From NCBI GenBank assembly GCA_947179485.1, contig OX359246.1, positions 186,001-250,000 of the forward strand: DNA of 64,000 nucleotides, in the 5' to 3' direction. The DNA comes from Allacma fusca. Taxonomy: Eukaryota; Arthropoda; Collembola; Symphypleona; Sminthuridae. Positions 3,850-60,908 of the stretch are shown piece by piece (the stretch's first letter is position 1; the number at the start of each line of letters is the position of its first letter). The notes below the pieces were generated by a model. The model did no database searches. It saw nothing but the letters and a program-made list of their open reading frames with translations, and was not told where the DNA came from. The position numbers and the translations under genes are program-made.

Positions 3850-5060
3850 AAATCTTCCCGTTCCTGCCAAGCAATTTCCATCCCAGTTCTCGCTGGTCAC
3901 GCATTTAATTCGAACCTCTAGCTCAGGTTCATTCATTCCATGAATAATAATTATCCTAAAGTGCCAAAACAGAGTAAAAAAAGGAGAAGCAAAACCCGGA
4001 GAGAGAATTTGAAAATAATTATTTCTTGTTACCCCACTGACACTTTCAAAATAAATTTTGATGCTTAATTATTGAATATGTCATTGGCCTGTCACAAATC
4101 AACCTACTACGCTGCAGAGTTGAGGAGAGTTGATAATTGTGGTCCATTGTGGGTATTGCGAATAAAGTTAAGGAGCAAAACGGGATGAATTCAGTATATC
4201 AACATGGAGCGTAAAACAGGACATGGAGAAATAGAAAATTTCAGTGCTTGATGCTGTAATTTTCGTCCTACAAATAGTGGTTATAAATAATAAAAATGCT
4301 GAGTTTGTAGCAAGATTTATGACAATTTTTCAGTTTATTTTATATGCACCCATTAAGCTAATTATATCACTGAAGGAGTCGTAACTGATGCGGATATTTA
4401 TAGGAAAAATTGTTGCTGAAATTCAAATCATTTAATGGGAGGGCTGGAAATACTGACCTTGACACCCAACAAAATAATTTTCTGAGCATTTATCATTTTA
4501 AGAATTTTAACAAGATGACGATATTTTTTCACCATATTTCTCAAATACCTTACTTGAGATTGAGACTTTCTGTCATCATCGTCATTTAACGCCCACCCAA
4601 ACCCTTCAAAAGGGTAGGCCCATAAATCTAGCATTTTCAAATTATTTATAACAGTCAGATTTAACATAAAAACTTGCAAAATAAAAAATTGGTCTCTTTC
4701 CATATTTTTGTTAATTTGACTCCAGATGTCCAGATTGTCATATCCACAAACTCCGCTCATAATCAGTGATTACAGCCGATGAAATTTGCTAGAACCGAAC
4801 ATCAATTTTAATTTTGTAAAAAATTTTTGGGGTAACAGGAAACATAATCTATTTAAATTCCGGTGGAAAAATTTCGTCAAAAGACCATTAATCCTAAGCA
4901 GTGGCAGGTCTTACAATCAGATAATTCCTTCTGATCAAAAAATTAGTCATGTCAAAACACTGGTCAAAATTTACGGGGTTTTCAAAATTTCGAGGTTTAA
5001 ATTTTGAGATTTCTTAAATTAATACAAAGGTCTGAATGGGGGTACTAACTAAGGCGGTTA
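3850..5060. other. Intergenic, no gene seen
   Basis: AT-rich DNA with scattered open frames of up to about 110 codons (for example 4428-4760 on the minus strand). Their composition looks random and they lack recognisable motifs. Confidence 0.5.
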
Positions 5061-5070
5061 GAACGAGGTG

Positions 5071-5078
5071 TTGCACTT
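5071..5078. repeat. Target-site duplication, left (outer element)
   Basis: ttgcactt, identical to 6987-6994. Confidence 0.9.
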
Positions 5079-5473
5079 CAGAGCTGCGCTCAAGTTCAAG
5101 TAGACCATGAGTATTTCAAGTCATGGTCAAGTTCGGGTCATGGTCAAGTAAAATATAATGGATACTTGAACATTCAAGGCATGGTCAAGTTATTTATTCT
5201 ACTTGACCCTGAGATTTGAAATCAAGTAGTTATCATGGTCAAGACAAAAAATTCTACTTGAGAGTCAAGTCATGTTCATGGTCAAGTAAAAATGTATAAA
5301 TCCTTGACCATGAACCATGAGTATTTCAAGTACTTATTCAAGTAACGTAACGTTACGCATATCGAAGTTGTGGCACTATATATTTCAATAGGTTTTCTTT
5401 CATAATGTTATCGTTACTCCGAGACTCCGTATCCATACATGTTCTTCTAAACTACATATTTTTGGGTTACGAT

Positions 5474-5481
5474 TCAATATC
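5474..5481. repeat. Target-site duplication, left (inner element)
   Basis: tcaatatc, identical to 6153-6160. Confidence 0.9.
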
Positions 5482-6152
5482 CAGTGCTCTCAATTTTACT
5501 CATTACTCGAATTTTTCATAAAGGGAGTAAGTGAGTATTGTACTTACTCGTACTCACACCTGCGAGTATGAGTAAGTAATGAGTAAGTAATTTTAAAAAG
5601 GTTGATGTTTAAGTAAGTAAAGAGTAAGTACGAACACTCATTCCCCGGTGTAATTTAAGTAATGAGTAAGACGAACTGCAAAGTATCAAAAAGTAAGTAT
5701 TGAGTAAGTAAACTCTTCTTTACTGGAGTAACTACCATAGAAAAAATGTTCTCCGACAATATCCATGACTTATATATGGTTTATGGAGGCAGATAACACA
5801 GGCCATAGGCAAACAATGCCTTTAAATACTTGCGACGATGCAAATCGTTAAACTTGAGTCGTTGACTACACTACCAAAGATGGCAGTGACGTGGATTATA
5901 TTTGAAAATGCGTAAGTATTACTTGAGTACTATGCAGACAAAAGTAAGTAAAGAGTAAGTAATATCAGCTTATTTTTGCGAATAAGTAAGTAAAGAGTAA
6001 GTATTACACTGCGACCCGAAATTTTGAGGGAATAAAGAGTAAGTCAGATAGCTACCATGAAGCCCCTGAGTAAGTAAAAAGTAAGTACTGGACATCATGA
6101 GAGGCAAAATTATGAGTAAAGAGTAAGTAAGGGTGTCTAACTGAGAGCACTG
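5482..6152. mobile_element. hAT-like MITE nested inside the outer element
   Basis: The ends are CAGTGCTCTCA and TGAGAGCACTG, an 11-base perfect inverted repeat. The flanks are the identical 8-base duplication tcaatatc (5474-5481 and 6153-6160). The 671-base interior is non-coding and built largely from GAGTAAGTA words, mostly on the plus strand, with reverse copies near the left end. Its end sequence differs from that of the outer element, so it is a separate family that inserted later. Confidence 0.9.
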
Positions 6153-6160
6153 TCAATATC
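6153..6160. repeat. Target-site duplication, right (inner element)
   Basis: tcaatatc, identical to 5474-5481. Confidence 0.9.
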
Positions 6161-6986
6161 TCTAGATATTGGAAAGCCACAGCTGTAATAGTGAACGAAA
6201 GAAAACGAATATAAAAACTTTGGAGCAGCACCTATGAAAGCAACAGTGTTCAATGTTCGATTGTTGTATAAAATAAACACGTTGTTAATCAATCAAGTTA
6301 CTTAAATCCAAGTACTCTTTTCATTCTAAACAATTTAACATCTGTAAAACGTTAAACACTACCACATAAGCCAGTTTGTTTCATTAACAGGGTGGACGCT
6401 GAACTGTAGATATTTTCAGTGAAGCACAACCCAAACTTGAATGTTAGCGTAAGTAATTATTATTAACAGGAAAATTCAATGGGAAATGATTTACTTACTT
6501 CTAAAAGACTGTTTACCTTACAATTAGCAGAGACTATTCGTAGTTTCTCGTGATTGAAGGTTGGCTAAAACTAAAACACAAGACATTAAAATATCCAACT
6601 GAAGCAGCAACTCAAAATTTACTTGGAGAAGCTTGACAATTGTGAATAATATTGTTATTTGCTGTTTTAACCATAAATGGTGTACTTGGTGTATTTTAAG
6701 TGTGAATACTATTTTTCTATTTCTATTTTTTTAAAAACTTGACAGTTCAAGTCAAGTTCAAGTTCGGGTCATGGTCAAGTCATGGTCAAGTCAAGAGTTG
6801 TCCCTGCTATACTTGACCAGGTTCAAGTTACGCGGAAAGTACTTGAATACTTGACCCTGAATTTTCAAGTAATTGTCTGACCATGAACCGTCAAGTTCAA
6901 GACCGTCTGAAAAACCTACTTGACTGTCAGGGTCAAGTCAAGTTCAGGGTCAAGTTTGGGATTTACTTGACTTGAGCGCAGCTCTG

Positions 6987-6994
6987 TTGCACTT
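6987..6994. repeat. Target-site duplication, right (outer element)
   Basis: ttgcactt, identical to 5071-5078. Confidence 0.9.
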
Positions 6995-7290
6995 GGTTCT
7001 AATCCGGTAAGTGCGTCAGAAAATCACGGAAGTAACGCGAAATAACGCAAAAAATTACGGTTTTTCAGGATTTAGCGGTCAAAATTTTGAAAACTCAAAA
7101 TTGAAATCAATATTCGATTCCCGGTTACCACCAAAGTTCGAACGAGGTATTGCACTGGATTTTATTCTTACTAAATACTTCTGGATTTATATAGAATTTT
7201 CATGCCGTGTAGCCAAATCGTATATAATTATAGGGAAATTATTTATATGTAAATGCGCGGTGATGAGATAAAACATATAGTTTAGATATT
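6995..7290. other. Repeat-like flank of the outer transposon
   Basis: The sequence gaacgaggtattgcact at 7139-7155 closely matches gaacgaggtgttgcact on the left flank of the transposon (5061-5077). ggttctaatcc at 6995-7005 resembles a tRNA B box. The host sequence may therefore be an old tRNA-derived repeat. An open frame at 7011-7271 has no recognisable feature. Confidence 0.35.
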
Positions 7291-7399: not shown

Positions 7400-7575
7400 A
7401 CAATTTTGCTGTCCCCATCCCGTCCCGATTTTATCTAGGGAAAATTGTAATGCCTTCGTCCCTGCCCGACTTTTTGTGGGAACAATTTGCCTGTCCCCGT
7501 CACGTCCCGATTTCGTCTATATAGGGACATGTTAAGTCCTATGTCCAATGTCCCATCCCTAAAGCGCTTACAAAA
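7400..7575. repeat. GTCCC-rich repeat remnant, hAT-like family
   Basis: Repeated gtccccatcccgtcccga and related words, ending in catcccta (tagggatg in reverse), resemble the end of the small element at 3648-3837. No matching left end or target duplication was found, so it is likely truncated. Confidence 0.45.
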
Positions 7576-9401: not shown

Positions 9402-11726
9402 TCACGCGGTGGAATTGCCCACACACTCGGAACTAGAATTCTGAACCTTGGCACAAACAGGACGCTGAGACAATGGCTTGTATATTTTGGTCTTCGTGCC
9501 CATCACTAGGCAATCTAGGTGACGCGTGGGAATTTTACTCGGGCTTGAACAAGCAGGTATGTACCTATGAGGAACAGACTTGCTCAAGAAATCAGTCTGT
9601 TCTACTGCACCGGATGAACAACATTCCAGGGACTTCAGCATTCCAAGGACCATCTGTGCTCTTTTGATTAGATTAAAAATTTTGATATTTTAATGTATTA
9701 TTAATTAATAATGACTAAACAATATTTAGCTAGCAAAAATAATCGCATAATTCTACAATTAGCAATAACTATGAAAACAGGAATAATTAACTAATAATAA
9801 TAATAAAAGCAGCTACCAGGTAATCAAGTAATACTGAAACTCCAGTTTAGTTCGGGGTTCGTATATACTCTTAATGTTAACTTTTCATACAAAAAGGCTT
9901 CTACATAATTCATGCTTTACATATATTATGTTACTAATAACTTGTTGACCCCAGCGCAGCTCTGCATTCACAAGGTTTTAATACAATAATAAATTACTTT
10001 AAAGCATGCTGAGACCACATGGTTTGCAGATCAGTTATCACGTGGTAAGTGTTTTCCGGACTGGAAATCCATTCCTTGATTTCACTCCCGTGATGAGTGT
10101 CAAAGAGCACAAGAGGAAAGTCCATTGCCATGGAGTACTGAGGCTTCCTGTAATAATAATAATAACAAGAATTAACAATAAATTAGCACGGTATCTACAG
10201 TATAGAATTGAAAAGCAGTGCAGTTCCAACACTTTATGATATTCGGGCGAAAACACAAGAACTATCAGCTTTTTCTGAAACTTGTAGATGGACAATTTGC
10301 CTGTTCCACGACTGCTGATTAAACATAGACTTACTTTGGCATTTTTTCCAGATCCAGTAAATCCCGAACAATCTCAGGCTCCTCCAGGCCCTTCCCCACT
10401 AGAATGAGCACTGCTACAATACATCGAATCTGGTGCCAGAGGAAGGACTGACCACAGATTTCCATTTCATAAATGCAATATTGGTCACACGATTGAACAT
10501 CCTCCGGAGGACTGCATTTACTCATTTTGAAAGATATAATTCTGCGAATGGTAGTTTTTTCCCCAGAAGTATCCACCTTGCAAAAATTCTGGAAGTTGTG
10601 TTCCCCAATTAGATAAGCGCCGGCTCGCCTCATTGCCTATTTCATAATCAACAGCTTTTAGTCATGCTTCATTGGGTTCTTTGAAAATCAATAATATTTA
10701 TTTGTCCCAGTTTTCAAACAACAACATACATTCAAGTCCGCATCCCCTGCAGGAATTAAGTACCTATACATTCGCTCCTTGCAGTCAAACCGGGCAGAAA
10801 ATTCTGGGGATACGGGAGCCCATGCTAATACTCGGATCTCTTTCGGCAAAATCGCATTCAAAATTTTACAGTAATCTATTTCCAGTGCCAAATCCGAGAT
10901 TAGTTTTTCATTTTGAGCACTATCTTCAAGTTGTGAAGTTATGACGCCTAAACCGGCATTACATTTACACCGTAGATCGATAGAAAGGACCTGAGAGGTA
11001 TTCAAAAATTTTTAATTCCAAAATGACATGAATATGAATTAATTTAACAATGTTTATTAAATAATTGATTCTTTATATTATTATACCTGGCAAAAAGCAC
11101 TAACTCCTTTATCAGTCCGCCCGCAACGATGATAATTAGATGTGCTTCTATCCTGAATTAATTTTGATTTGGTTAGAGCTAGGAAGACATGTGCCTCAAT
11201 AGTATTATCCGTGTCCTCTTGTACCGCCAGTCCTTGGTAGTCCCAGCCCAAGTATGCTACTTTTAATGCAACGTGTCTTTTTGGGTGCCTACATTGCAAC
11301 TTAATTATCAAGACTTGCTCAAATTTAACAACTCATCGTCTAATTGACTGTAGCGTGTATTTACACACAGATTTGAACACGTTCAAGCTTATTTTTAATG
11401 CTGCAAATACAGCTCCTTACATTAACTTTGCTTCCCACAGCAACAATCAGGATGTTCGCAATGAGTAGTTACTATCGTCTTGAGCGGGGAAGTAAGTAAT
11501 TATATGCATAATGTAATAATTATTTATTTATATTAATTCTTACCTACTTTGAAAAGTCAAAAGCCCGGTTACGTCGGGCTTTCTTAATTGAGCGAATATC
11601 GTCGGCAGTATCCCGTTTCACAACATTCCGGAGCTGCTTCACATGACAGGACAACTTCCGGATCTTCTCAATCAAGTCCTCTCGGGTCATCTTGTTATAA
11701 TCTTCTCCCTCAATTTCCAAATCCAT
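9402..11726 (-). CDS. PUS3: tRNA pseudouridine synthase 3 (PUS3/Deg1 type), six exons
   Basis: Predicted exons are 11726-11548, 11288-11087, 10990-10730, 10636-10335, 10147-9998 and 9660-9402, giving 450 residues (human 481). All junctions are GT-AG and in phase. The enzyme is a TruA-family synthase that converts uridine to pseudouridine at positions 38/39 of the tRNA anticodon arm. Exon 2 carries the catalytic motif CGRTDKG (about residues 115-121, with D119 as nucleophile) and the family segment RHVALKVAYLGWDYQG. Exons 3-5 give FDCKERMYRYLIP, GEHNFQNFCK, FLWHQIRCIVA and KPQYSMAMDFPLVL, all typical of Pus3. Exon 6 gives IYKPLSQRPVC, which matches the C-terminal part of vertebrate PUS3. Exon 1 is a charged, probably helical leader ending in FDFSK. 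The start is the first ATG of exon 1. Confidence 0.92.
9953..9964. mobile_element. Solo hAT-like terminal repeat in PUS3 intron 5
   Basis: agcgcagctctg is identical to the outer 12 bases of the right end of the 5079-6986 element. No partner end or duplication was found nearby, so this is either a truncated relic or chance. Confidence 0.4.
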
Positions 11727-44897: not shown

Positions 44898-45126
44898 ATG
44901 CGTTGTCATAATTGTGCACATTCGTTGGCACATTTGTGACGATGCGTTGTCGGATTTATGGTCATGCGTTGTAATAGTTGTGCGCATTCGTAGTCCTGTT
45001 TGTGATCATGCGCTGTCATATTTGTGGTCATGCGTTGTAATAGTTGTGCGCATATGTTCCCATAATTGTGCACAATCCTTGTCTAAATTGTGCGCATGCC
45101 GTATTGTGCCGTAACGCTCCGCTCTG
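44898..45126. repeat. Tandem repeat with probable hAT-like end
   Basis: Two units of about 65 bases, each made of a 44-base and a 22-base part that start with atgcgttgt or atgcgctgt. gtcatgcgttgtaatagttg occurs at 44961 and again at 45027. The block ends gtaacgctccgctctg, which reads cagagcggagcg in reverse, like the cagagctgcgct end of the 5079-6986 transposon. No left end or target duplication was found. Confidence 0.6.
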
Positions 45127-58215: not shown

Positions 58216-60908
58216 ATGAAAGTCCTATTGGTAAGTCACCCTCAAAATTTTACATATTTACCGTCTTCCCTGTTTTCAAACATCTCGGTCACAAAATATC
58301 AAATTCCAATTTACTCCTCTTCTCGTACAAATACATTAGGAGTGTGCTCTCCGTAACGTCCAATCAGTATTTACCTATAGTTAATTACTACAATAAGTCC
58401 CGGTCTTCATACTGACAGTCTTCTACACTTCCCACATATTCTTTTCTGACTTGCTTCATTTTTTGTAGAATTTACATTGGAAATTTATATCAGGGCAAAT
58501 TTGAGACCAAAGTTGGGCTTCCAACCAAATTCTATACCTTAGAACTTGTGCCAACGAGTTTTCAATCTCTCCTAGGATTTAGTCAATCGTAATTTTAACG
58601 AAAATTTCAACCGGAACCATTTTAGGATCCTTTTGAATTTGAGCGTTTTCCCTTGCTATAATAATTATTATTGAATTAAGATTATTATAAGACTAGCTAA
58701 AGATGCGAAGATTGTCTTCACCGGAAGACGAGCTCTAAGCTACTTCCTATACCGGCAAATCTCCGCTATACTATTTGTTGTTTACCTTGAGAGTGTACTC
58801 AACCCTTATACAGTTGGGGTAACGATAACGTTAATTCCAGCTCATTTTGCCTTGTGTAAGGGAATATTAAATAAATATTCTAACATTTCATATTTTTTCA
58901 GTAGAACTTTTGCAATAAGCTCAGGTTTTTAATTCAAATCAAAAGTCTGTTGAATTTTGAAGGGAATTAGAAGGAACGAATACAACTCATATAAACTTTG
59001 TTTACAATCTCACAGCTCTCAAGCTAGCTGAGAGTACAGTCATTTAGATTCTTATGAGGAGATAAGGCGGAGGAACAGGAAATTCTCACAGTAGTAAAAT
59101 TAATGTCCTTTGGATACATTTGGAATTATATCCCTTGAAATCTGTAGTAGGAAATATAAACTGTTTTAGTAATGTCTTCAAGTATAGCTATTAAATCACA
59201 GGCTGGGAGTTTTAAACCAGTAAATAGAACAATATCGATGTAATAAGTATCTATCGATCAGAATATTTAACATTACAATACATTACGGGACAGGAAAGGA
59301 GTTCACATTAGAAGGAATAGGATCAAGGAATTTTTATGAGCTTTACTGTAGTACAACTTACATTTAATTATTACAGTAAAAGCAGAGCAATTTTTAAAAA
59401 GCAGAAAATTTATTAAAAAGCAACAAATTTATTAAAAAGCAACAAATTTATTAAAAAGCAACAAATTTATTAAAAAGCAACAAATTTATTAAAAAGCAAC
59501 AAATTTATTAAAAAGCAACAAATTTATTAAAAAGCAACAAATTTATTAAAAAGCAACAAATTTATTAAAAAGCAACAAATTTATTAAAAAGCAACAAATT
59601 TATTAAAAAGCAACAAATTTATTAAAAAGCAACAAATTTATTAAAAAGCAACAAATTTATTAAAAAGCAACAAATTTATTAAAAAGCAACAAATTTATTA
59701 AAAAGCAACAAATTTATTAAAAAGCAACAAATTTATTAAAAAGCAACAAATTTATTAAAAAGCAACAAATTTATTAAAAAGCAACAAATTTATTAAAAAG
59801 CAACAAATTTATTAAAAAGCAACAAATTTATTAAAAGCAGTGAACCTGAAATTGCCGGTAAATTTTGATTATGACTACAAATAATAGAGAAATAGCAAGA
59901 AATAGCACACACTGGAGTAACAAACAAAAGGTCTTGTCAACAATGTTTAGAGTAAAAGTGAAAATTTGCATTTTGACGGAAAATGGGGACACTCACTTTT
60001 GTGAACCGGTAAATTTGTTAGATAAATTGCAAAGAAAGCGTAGGAAAAAAATACAGGTTGTCAAATCATTCCCAAGTGCAGAAAAGCCCCAGATACGGAT
60101 ACATATCTGACAATTAGATTTTTTACTACTGTGACCCAGAAGGGGCAACGGGTTGGGAAGGACTACATTCTGCCCTAATAATAATAATAATAATAATTTT
60201 AGATGGTTTTTAAAATTTGAATTGGAATGATTACAGGTCCTGGCATCCTTTGGGGTGCTGGCGTCAGCGCAGTACGGCGTCCCATCTCAGAACTACGGAG
60301 CCCCACAGTCCGCCTATGGAGCTCCATCCCAACAGGGTTCACCCCAGTATGGACCTCCACCCCAGCAAAACTACGGACCCCCAATCTCCAACTCATATTC
60401 CCAACCCCCACCCCAACAATCCTACGGTGGCCCCACGGGAACAAGCGGAGGCGGCTACGGTGCCCCTGCCGCAGCTCCAGTCATCCACAAGCACGTCTAC
60501 GTCCATGTCCCCCCACCAGAGCCCAGCTACCCCAAGCCTAAGAAGGCCTACGTCCCACCCCCACCCCCACAAAAGCACTACAAGATCATCTTCATCAAGG
60601 CCCCTACCCCACCCCCTCCAGAGATCCCAGACATCCCAGCTATCCCACCCCCACCAGAGACCAAGACCCTTGTCTACGTTTTGGTCAAGAAGCCCGAGCC
60701 CACTCCCCAAGTTCAAATCCCTCTCCCAATCCCAACCAAGCCCACCAAGCCCGAGGTCTACTTCATCCGCTACAAGACTCCGAACAAGGATCTCGGAGGC
60801 TACGGACCCCCCGCTACCGGTCTGTCCAACGAGTACGGAGCACCCTCTCAAGGCCTGGACCTCTCCGGCCCAGCCCCAGGCTCCGACTATGGAGTCCCAA
60901 CTTACTAA
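58216..60908 (+). CDS. Tweedle-family cuticle protein (DUF243), two exons
   Basis: Predicted exons are 58216-58230 (five codons, MKVLL) and 60237-60908, giving 228 residues. Donor gtaagt and acceptor ttacag are in phase 0, and only the joined form gives a complete signal peptide (MKVLLVLASFGVLASA). The mature protein begins with Gln/Tyr/Gly/Ala/Pro repeats (YGAP, YGPP). It then shows the four conserved Tweedle blocks: HKHVYVHVPPPE (about 89-100), QKHYKIIFIKAP, KTLVYVLVKKPE and KPEVYFIRYKT (ends about 186). Pro-rich linkers lie between the blocks, and a YGAP-type tail closes the protein. Tweedle proteins are secreted structural proteins of arthropod cuticle that bind chitin and affect body shape in flies. 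The very short first exon is common in arthropod cuticle genes. A TATA-like box precedes it. Confidence 0.93.
59396..59832. repeat. 19-base minisatellite, 23 units
   Basis: The unit is aaaaagcaacaaatttatt. The first unit (59396-59414) is a variant with gcagaaaa in place of gcaacaaa; the next 22 units, from 59415, look identical. A partial aaaagcag follows. Each unit carries AATAAA on the minus strand. The lack of divergence points to recent expansion. Confidence 0.95.
60175..60198. repeat. (TAA)n microsatellite near the Tweedle acceptor
   Basis: About seven taa units, some 40 bases before the splice acceptor. Confidence 0.8.

Follow-up and report, generated by a model that had tools for sequence, protein, structure and literature searches.

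A hAT-like non-autonomous element nested within another in the springtail Allacma fusca, and the likely movement of the pair

How did one DNA transposon come to lie inside another in the springtail Allacma fusca, and could the resulting nest still move? The window analysed here is the whole of a 64-kb stretch, C8:186001-250000, of a contig that is very probably chromosome 2 of this species (assembly qeAllFusc8), and the genome searched comprises 392,743,791 bases in 91 contigs. A preliminary description of this DNA had reported, within 5071-6994, two elements with perfect inverted ends of 17 and 11 bases, each pair enclosed by its own exact 8-base duplication (ttgcactt and tcaatatc). Ends and duplications are present at exactly those bases, and the span is exact with the duplications counted in (Table 1).

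The nested locus and its relatives in the genome

A scan of the 64 kb required inverted ends matching exactly over 8 bases or more, a separation of 50 to 3500 bases and an exact 8-base direct repeat around the pair; the outer and inner elements were the sole two pairs found. With ends relaxed to 7, 6 and 5 bases the scan gave 5, 10 and 29 pairs, the two elements included, as chance pairs enter. Subtracting the inner element and one copy of its duplication leaves an outer element of 1229 bp. No frame of at least 110 aa occurs in either element, and a six-frame Pfam reading of both gave no family over the cut-off and no hAT remnant, the single match below the cut-off (LydB, 0.016) being unrelated to hAT. 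Rfam gave no match on the window.

Table 1. Positions in the window of the two elements, their parts and the older repeat around them
Feature	Position	Strand	Remarks
Older repeat, left part	4917..5078	.	Resumes at 6995-7192; extent from usual match range
Outer target site duplication (TSD) TTGCACTT, left	5071-5078	+	Exact 8 bp
Outer element, non-autonomous, hAT-like	5079-6986	+	1908 bp with inner element inside
Outer left terminal inverted repeat (TIR) CAGAGCTGCGCTCAAGT	5079-5095	+	17/17 match to right TIR
Outer left array, TCAAGT/ACTTGA motifs	5090..5343	.	Motif counts and conservation
Inner TSD TCAATATC, left	5474-5481	+	Exact 8 bp
Inner element, non-autonomous hAT	5482-6152	+	671 bp; no coding capacity seen
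Inner left TIR CAGTGCTCTCA	5482-5492	+	11/11 match to right TIR
Inner left array, AGTAAG(TA) sites	5571..5710	+	41-42 bp spacing
Inner right array, AGTAAG sites	5943..6129	+	Sites at 5954, 5996, 6038, 6080, 6122; exact 42-bp steps, unrelated spacers
Inner right TIR	6142-6152	-	11/11
Inner TSD, right	6153-6160	+	Exact copy of left
Sole base differing between composites	6363	+	C in window, T in L009; 1 of 1908
Outer right array, TCAAGT/ACTTGA motifs	6737..6975	.	Motif counts and conservation
Outer right TIR	6970-6986	-	17/17
Outer TSD, right	6987-6994	+	Exact copy of left
Older repeat, right part	6995..7192	.	Joined-flank genome matches

Both ends recur throughout the genome, where the preliminary description had proposed looking for them. 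The outer 17-mer occurs 535 times, against 0 for its reversed control; for the inner end extended by three bases the counts are 404 and, in the control, 3. When the nested stretch was searched against the genome and 40 of 1653 candidates were scored, we obtained 34 outer loci (the window among them), all of which were read, and six further inner loci. For the inner family the best 40 of 301 candidates were scored, each 96-100% identical; two are the composites described below, and 28 of the other 38 were read. Copies with boundaries elsewhere or with flanks other than 8-base duplications, named beforehand as grounds for refutation, were sought, and the outcome did not refute the reading: at the predicted edges the duplication is exact at all 33 outer loci that have both ends (one of the 34, L039, is without the left end) and at 26 of the 28 inner loci (L050 and L054 are the two others), as well as at the composite site itself. 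The inner length is 674-675 bp at all 28.

No two of the 32 tabulated outer duplications are alike; their second base is T in 25 and their seventh base A in 25, which fits nTnnnnAn, the reported target preference of Hermes (PMC10368747). The inner family fits this pattern less well than the outer (second base T in 12 of 26, seventh base A in 19 of 26), and the window's own two duplications fit it poorly.

Judged from best-matching copies, figures that lean young, the mean pairwise difference is 0.42% for the left half of the outer element (n=32), 0.58% for its right half (n=31) and 1.05% for the inner element (n=29 copies), which bears out the earlier suggestion that neither insertion is very old. 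Short and non-coding, with numerous near-identical copies, the inner element is a MITE; at about 1.2 kb the outer is better named a non-autonomous element. An older outer copy, L079, is 75-86% identical (BLAST pieces longer than 100 bases), and further older copies are 82-92% identical to L079, so the outer family was active in more than one period.

Several other features were observed. At window positions 9953-9964 (-), after TTGACC, 12 bases match the outer TIR exactly; no partner end was found for them, and they are probably what is left of an older element of the outer type. Elements of the two families stand un-nested about 250 bp from each other at L057 (C8:18164393 region). Over 7400-7560 of the window, GTCCC and CCCGATTT blocks recur and end near ccatcccta; by eye they resemble one end of a further hAT-type element. 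The window also holds a young tandem array of a 19-bp unit at 59389-59836 (23.6 copies, 99% matches) and a 66-bp/22-bp tandem repeat at 44898-45099 (69-84% matches).

Order of events and probable movement of the pair

The landing place of the outer element is an older repeat. When the two flanks were joined as a 400-base query, 40 listed rows (38 places, the window's own two excluded) matched at 68-85% identity, the usual match range of 39-398 setting the extent in Table 1. The joined insertion site is crossed unbroken by 33 of these 40 rows, which places the arrival of the outer element after that of the repeat.

The inner element came later still, as the preliminary description had claimed, and the empty sites that it had proposed looking for in other copies are what shows it. 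Among 32 outer copies, 30 carry a single, uninterrupted TCAATATC without footprint at the inner site, and by eye the older copy L079 is uninterrupted there too; thus the inner element inserted into an existing outer one. The two interrupted copies are the window locus and a second composite, L009, at C8:57667343-57669252, on the same contig and 57 Mb away.

This second composite differs from that in the window by only one base (Table 1). Its 1-kb flanks show zero BLAST similarity to those of the window locus, and it has its own exact 8-bp duplication, TTTAAAAC. Near-identity, unrelated flanks and a different duplication together make transposition of the pair itself the most likely event. In addition, the window's inner copy has lost four bases found in all 28 other aligned inner loci, which leaves a 38-bp step in its left array, and L009 agrees with the window there, so both composites descend from one inner insertion. 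The nested pair most likely moved as one unit.

Since the composites share contig C8 and differ so little, segmental duplication or gene conversion could be proposed in place of transposition, although we regard either as very unlikely. Under a segmental duplication the likeness would not be expected to end at the inverted ends, as it does, with 1 kb of flank unmatched on either side and each locus bearing an exact 8-bp duplication of its own. Converting a resident outer copy could bring in the inner element, but the tract would need to span most of the element, because the composites share variants in the outer halves that are absent from most other outer copies: one in left column 269 (otherwise only in L041), one in right column 118 (also in L023 and L036) and a 2-base gap (also in L010). 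That two separate inner insertions instead struck one and the same base in two outer copies is conceivable in principle given that hAT elements have weak target preferences, but its probability is negligible, because the two inner copies are identical, share a deletion seen at none of the other aligned loci, and occupy a site that is free in all other outer copies examined.

Returning to transposition of the pair, we consider it highly probable that two non-autonomous hAT families are nested here and that the composite later moved whole through its outer ends, by a transposase acting in trans. In such a sequence of events, the outer element (about 1.23 kb) would spread by cut-and-paste, copying 8 bp of target at each insertion, and one outer copy would then take in a 671-bp element of the second family at tcaatatc. 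With the outer ends of the nested copy intact, transposase supplied in trans could move all 1908 bp, carrying the inner element as a passenger, and the pair would then stand at two loci separated by 57 Mb, each with its own duplication. The direction of this jump and the transposase that moved the outer element are what we infer.

Family assignment and candidate sources of transposase

The preliminary description had assigned both families to a hAT-type mechanism and had proposed a search for a full-length, transposase-bearing relative; on both points the inner family bears it out. A hAT-domain match was found near one inner-type end, and L080, a 1782-bp inner relative with an exact duplication (CCTATGCT), has two putative exons, the second of which matches the hAT dimerisation domain PF05699 (1.2e-14, over the 21.4-bit cut-off). 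A genome search with its first exon gave 26 matches, one of them 3.2 kb from a hAT-domain match, and this led to L084, which is 4552 bp long, with an exact duplication (TCCAAAAC) and inner-type ends that match the inner element at 86-89% identity. L084 holds a putative hAT gene spread over several frames. The last of its eight scanned pieces, the one that passes the Pfam cut-off, matches PF05699 (2.7e-14, over 21.4 bits) and also the Hermes transposase in the PDB (1.6e-4). The first exon of L080 and L084 has no Pfam match, and the BED and Hermes DNA-binding matches fall below the cut-off.

A CA.G start is the rule for hAT TIRs, and the inner TIR begins in this way. Judged by its relative L084, which we regard as the putative transposase-encoding parent, the inner family is a hAT family. 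Two further inner relatives, L082 and L083, are 1140 bp long and have exact duplications of their own. A different arrangement was observed in L081 150-3109 (C1:45035600-45038900), a 2960-bp element with inner-type ends (its outer parts being 99% identical) and an exact duplication (GTCATGGC), whose middle is taken up by other sequence, some 2.3 kb long.

Among the outer ends listed (the first 100 of 535, and 40 places in 41 rows), no relative of the outer family with a transposase was found. We compared 146 of 150 hAT-domain matches with the outer ends, leaving out four on small contigs, and the sole listed end within 10 kb of such a match is C12:25542501. As an autonomous outer element this locus is unconvincing, the domain lying 9.3 kb away on the other strand. 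L078 444-4520 (C1:41973000-41979000) turned out to represent another hAT family. It has a 632-residue frame with a hAT dimerisation domain between CAGAGGTG ends and a duplication with one mismatch, gives zero BLAST matches to the outer, inner and L041 elements, and is possibly an intact hAT element.

The outer copy at L041 211-2772 (C8:27705346-27709117) contains a different nested hAT-like element, of 1323 bp, with CAGGCCTG ends, the duplication ACTTTGGA, TCAAGT arrays and an exon remnant. A genome search with its BED-like exon gave 120 rows, 84 of them below E 1e-13, and led to L085, a 4.2-kb relative that carries PF05699 (3e-11) and whose own 8-bp duplication is inexact. Proposed as an outer relative, L085 was rejected, as it is a member of the L041-insert family; the BED zinc finger of this line (0.033) is under the Pfam cut-off. 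One end of the L041-insert family has 13 of 17 bases in common with the outer TIR, the other end 8 of 17, and for the single comparison giving 13 the chance is about 0.0002 given CAG. This likeness is suggestive of a hAT affinity for the outer element. We also observed an inner copy at C8:73345930, about 650 bp from a match to the L041-insert-family exon at C8:73347254.

Other superfamilies, such as P and Merlin, also make 8-bp duplications, and with no outer transposase among the matches listed, it might be argued that the elements belong to one of these and are only hAT-like. We judge this extremely unlikely: the inner relatives L084 and L080 carry the hAT dimerisation domain, L084 with the Hermes match as well, and the outer element has CAG-type ends, nTnnnnAn targets and the TIR likeness, at one end, to a family whose relative L085 bears PF05699. 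By its ends and arrays, the length of its duplication and its pattern of targets, the outer element appears to be a hAT element, and it is these that carry the earlier assignment on the outer side; a transposase-bearing relative was gained for the inner family and not, among the ends listed, for the outer.

Subterminal arrays and implications for hAT nests

Both elements are dense in AAGT/ACTT tetramers, with 47 in the young outer copy L011 (shuffled mean 14.4) and 31 in the inner copy L059 (mean 8.3). Each comparison of motifs with spacers concerns one pair of sequences: between the inner element and L084, 2 of 157 motif bases differ as against 64 of 419 spacer bases (p 1e-7), or 1/149 against 65/427 with motifs defined in L084; between the ends of the outer element and L079, 3/129 against 44/401 (p 0.002), or 0/113 against 47/417 in reverse. 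Gaps between the outer element and L079 run opposite (motifs 19/148, spacers 33/434), L079 having lost or never had one segment of the array. An alignment of this pair over its whole length suggested no conservation of motifs (intact hexamers 14 of 32, control 93 of 196) and was dropped, as it crossed an unrelated insert of about 450 bp, and the comparison was redone on the two ends separately. L079 465-912, of about 450 bp, resembles a solo LTR by eye (TG...CA, 4-base duplication CAGG). Among young outer copies, the left side shows no clear deficit of changes in motifs (6 in 84 motif columns, 22 in 311 others), and the right side shows some deficit (9 in 117 motif columns, 121 in 711 others).

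Motifs kept while spacers change are the pattern expected of selected binding sites, and the dense AAGT-containing motifs (TCAAGT in the outer element, AGTAAGTA in the inner) are probably subterminal sites for transposase. Repetitive subterminal sequence was reportedly found necessary for movement when Tol2 was dissected, work that the Hermes paper cites. The site of the Hermes BED domain is AAG(T/C), according to the excerpted account (PMC10368747), and we infer that a BED-type domain would read the arrays here.

The spacing of the inner sites is a separate matter. At the right end of L059 six AGTAAG sites follow one another in exact 42-bp steps, and the steps in L084 are 41-43 bp; the outer motifs have no helical periodicity. 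We see an even chance that this stepping is a mere relic of a decayed tandem repeat and that the spacing has no role, since sites conserved in any case would leave a decayed array looking similar, and the outer element is without such stepping. The six exact steps in L059 weigh against a relic, as do its spacers, which at lag 42 are no more alike than chance would have them (identity 0.269; the mean for lags 20-129 is 0.262). In 20,000 random placements there were never as many equal-lag pairs as observed, a weak control because it breaks the 11-bp pairing of sites, which itself multiplies equal lags. Forty-two bp is four helical turns at 10.5 bp. A more speculative and doubtful reading concerns the inner AAGT-containing sites, often in 11-bp pairs, which lie every 42 bp on the same side of the helix along some 200 bp at one end: they could support a transposase complex extending beyond what the Hermes ring requires, and the nest would be a stable mobile composite whose two families each disregard the other's sites.

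The two elements resemble Hermes and hobo in their 8-bp duplications, the nTnnnnAn targets of the outer family, AAGT-containing subterminal sites and the C-terminal hAT domain of the inner relatives. Unlike these, the copies read here are non-autonomous and their arrays are dense (47 and 31 tetramers), the inner one being stepped by 42 bp. With BuT2 of Drosophila, in the part of its description available, they have in common deletion-derived short, MITE-like copies, 8-bp duplications and a multi-exon parent (PMC3942097), by description and not by sequence; that part of the description is without nested pairs moving together (PMC3942097). Maize Ac/Ds, as excerpted, offers internally emptied relatives, short TIRs and subterminal hexamer repeats (PMC3260210), and also a Ds-like element nested in another, such nests being rarer, probably because of chromosome breakage (PMC3260210). 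In contrast to nested Ds, the springtail pair has different ends, and the nest moved whole; it may be whole and mobile because its ends belong to two different families.

Nested elements and deletion-derived hAT copies are already well known, and no title or abstract among the top-ranked literature results describes these elements, which is weak evidence of their being unpublished. Each part of the locus is ordinary; what is unusual is how fully its history has been preserved: every step can be read in the sequence, from the old repeat through the insertion of an outer element with many sisters and that of the inner element to the movement of the composite. A nest of two hAT families can remain mobile; the Ds nests of maize are reported to be rarer, probably through chromosome breakage. 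With young, near-identical copies, a transposase-bearing relative of the inner element and conserved arrays, these families are natural material for testing the subterminal sites of hAT elements and their spacing.
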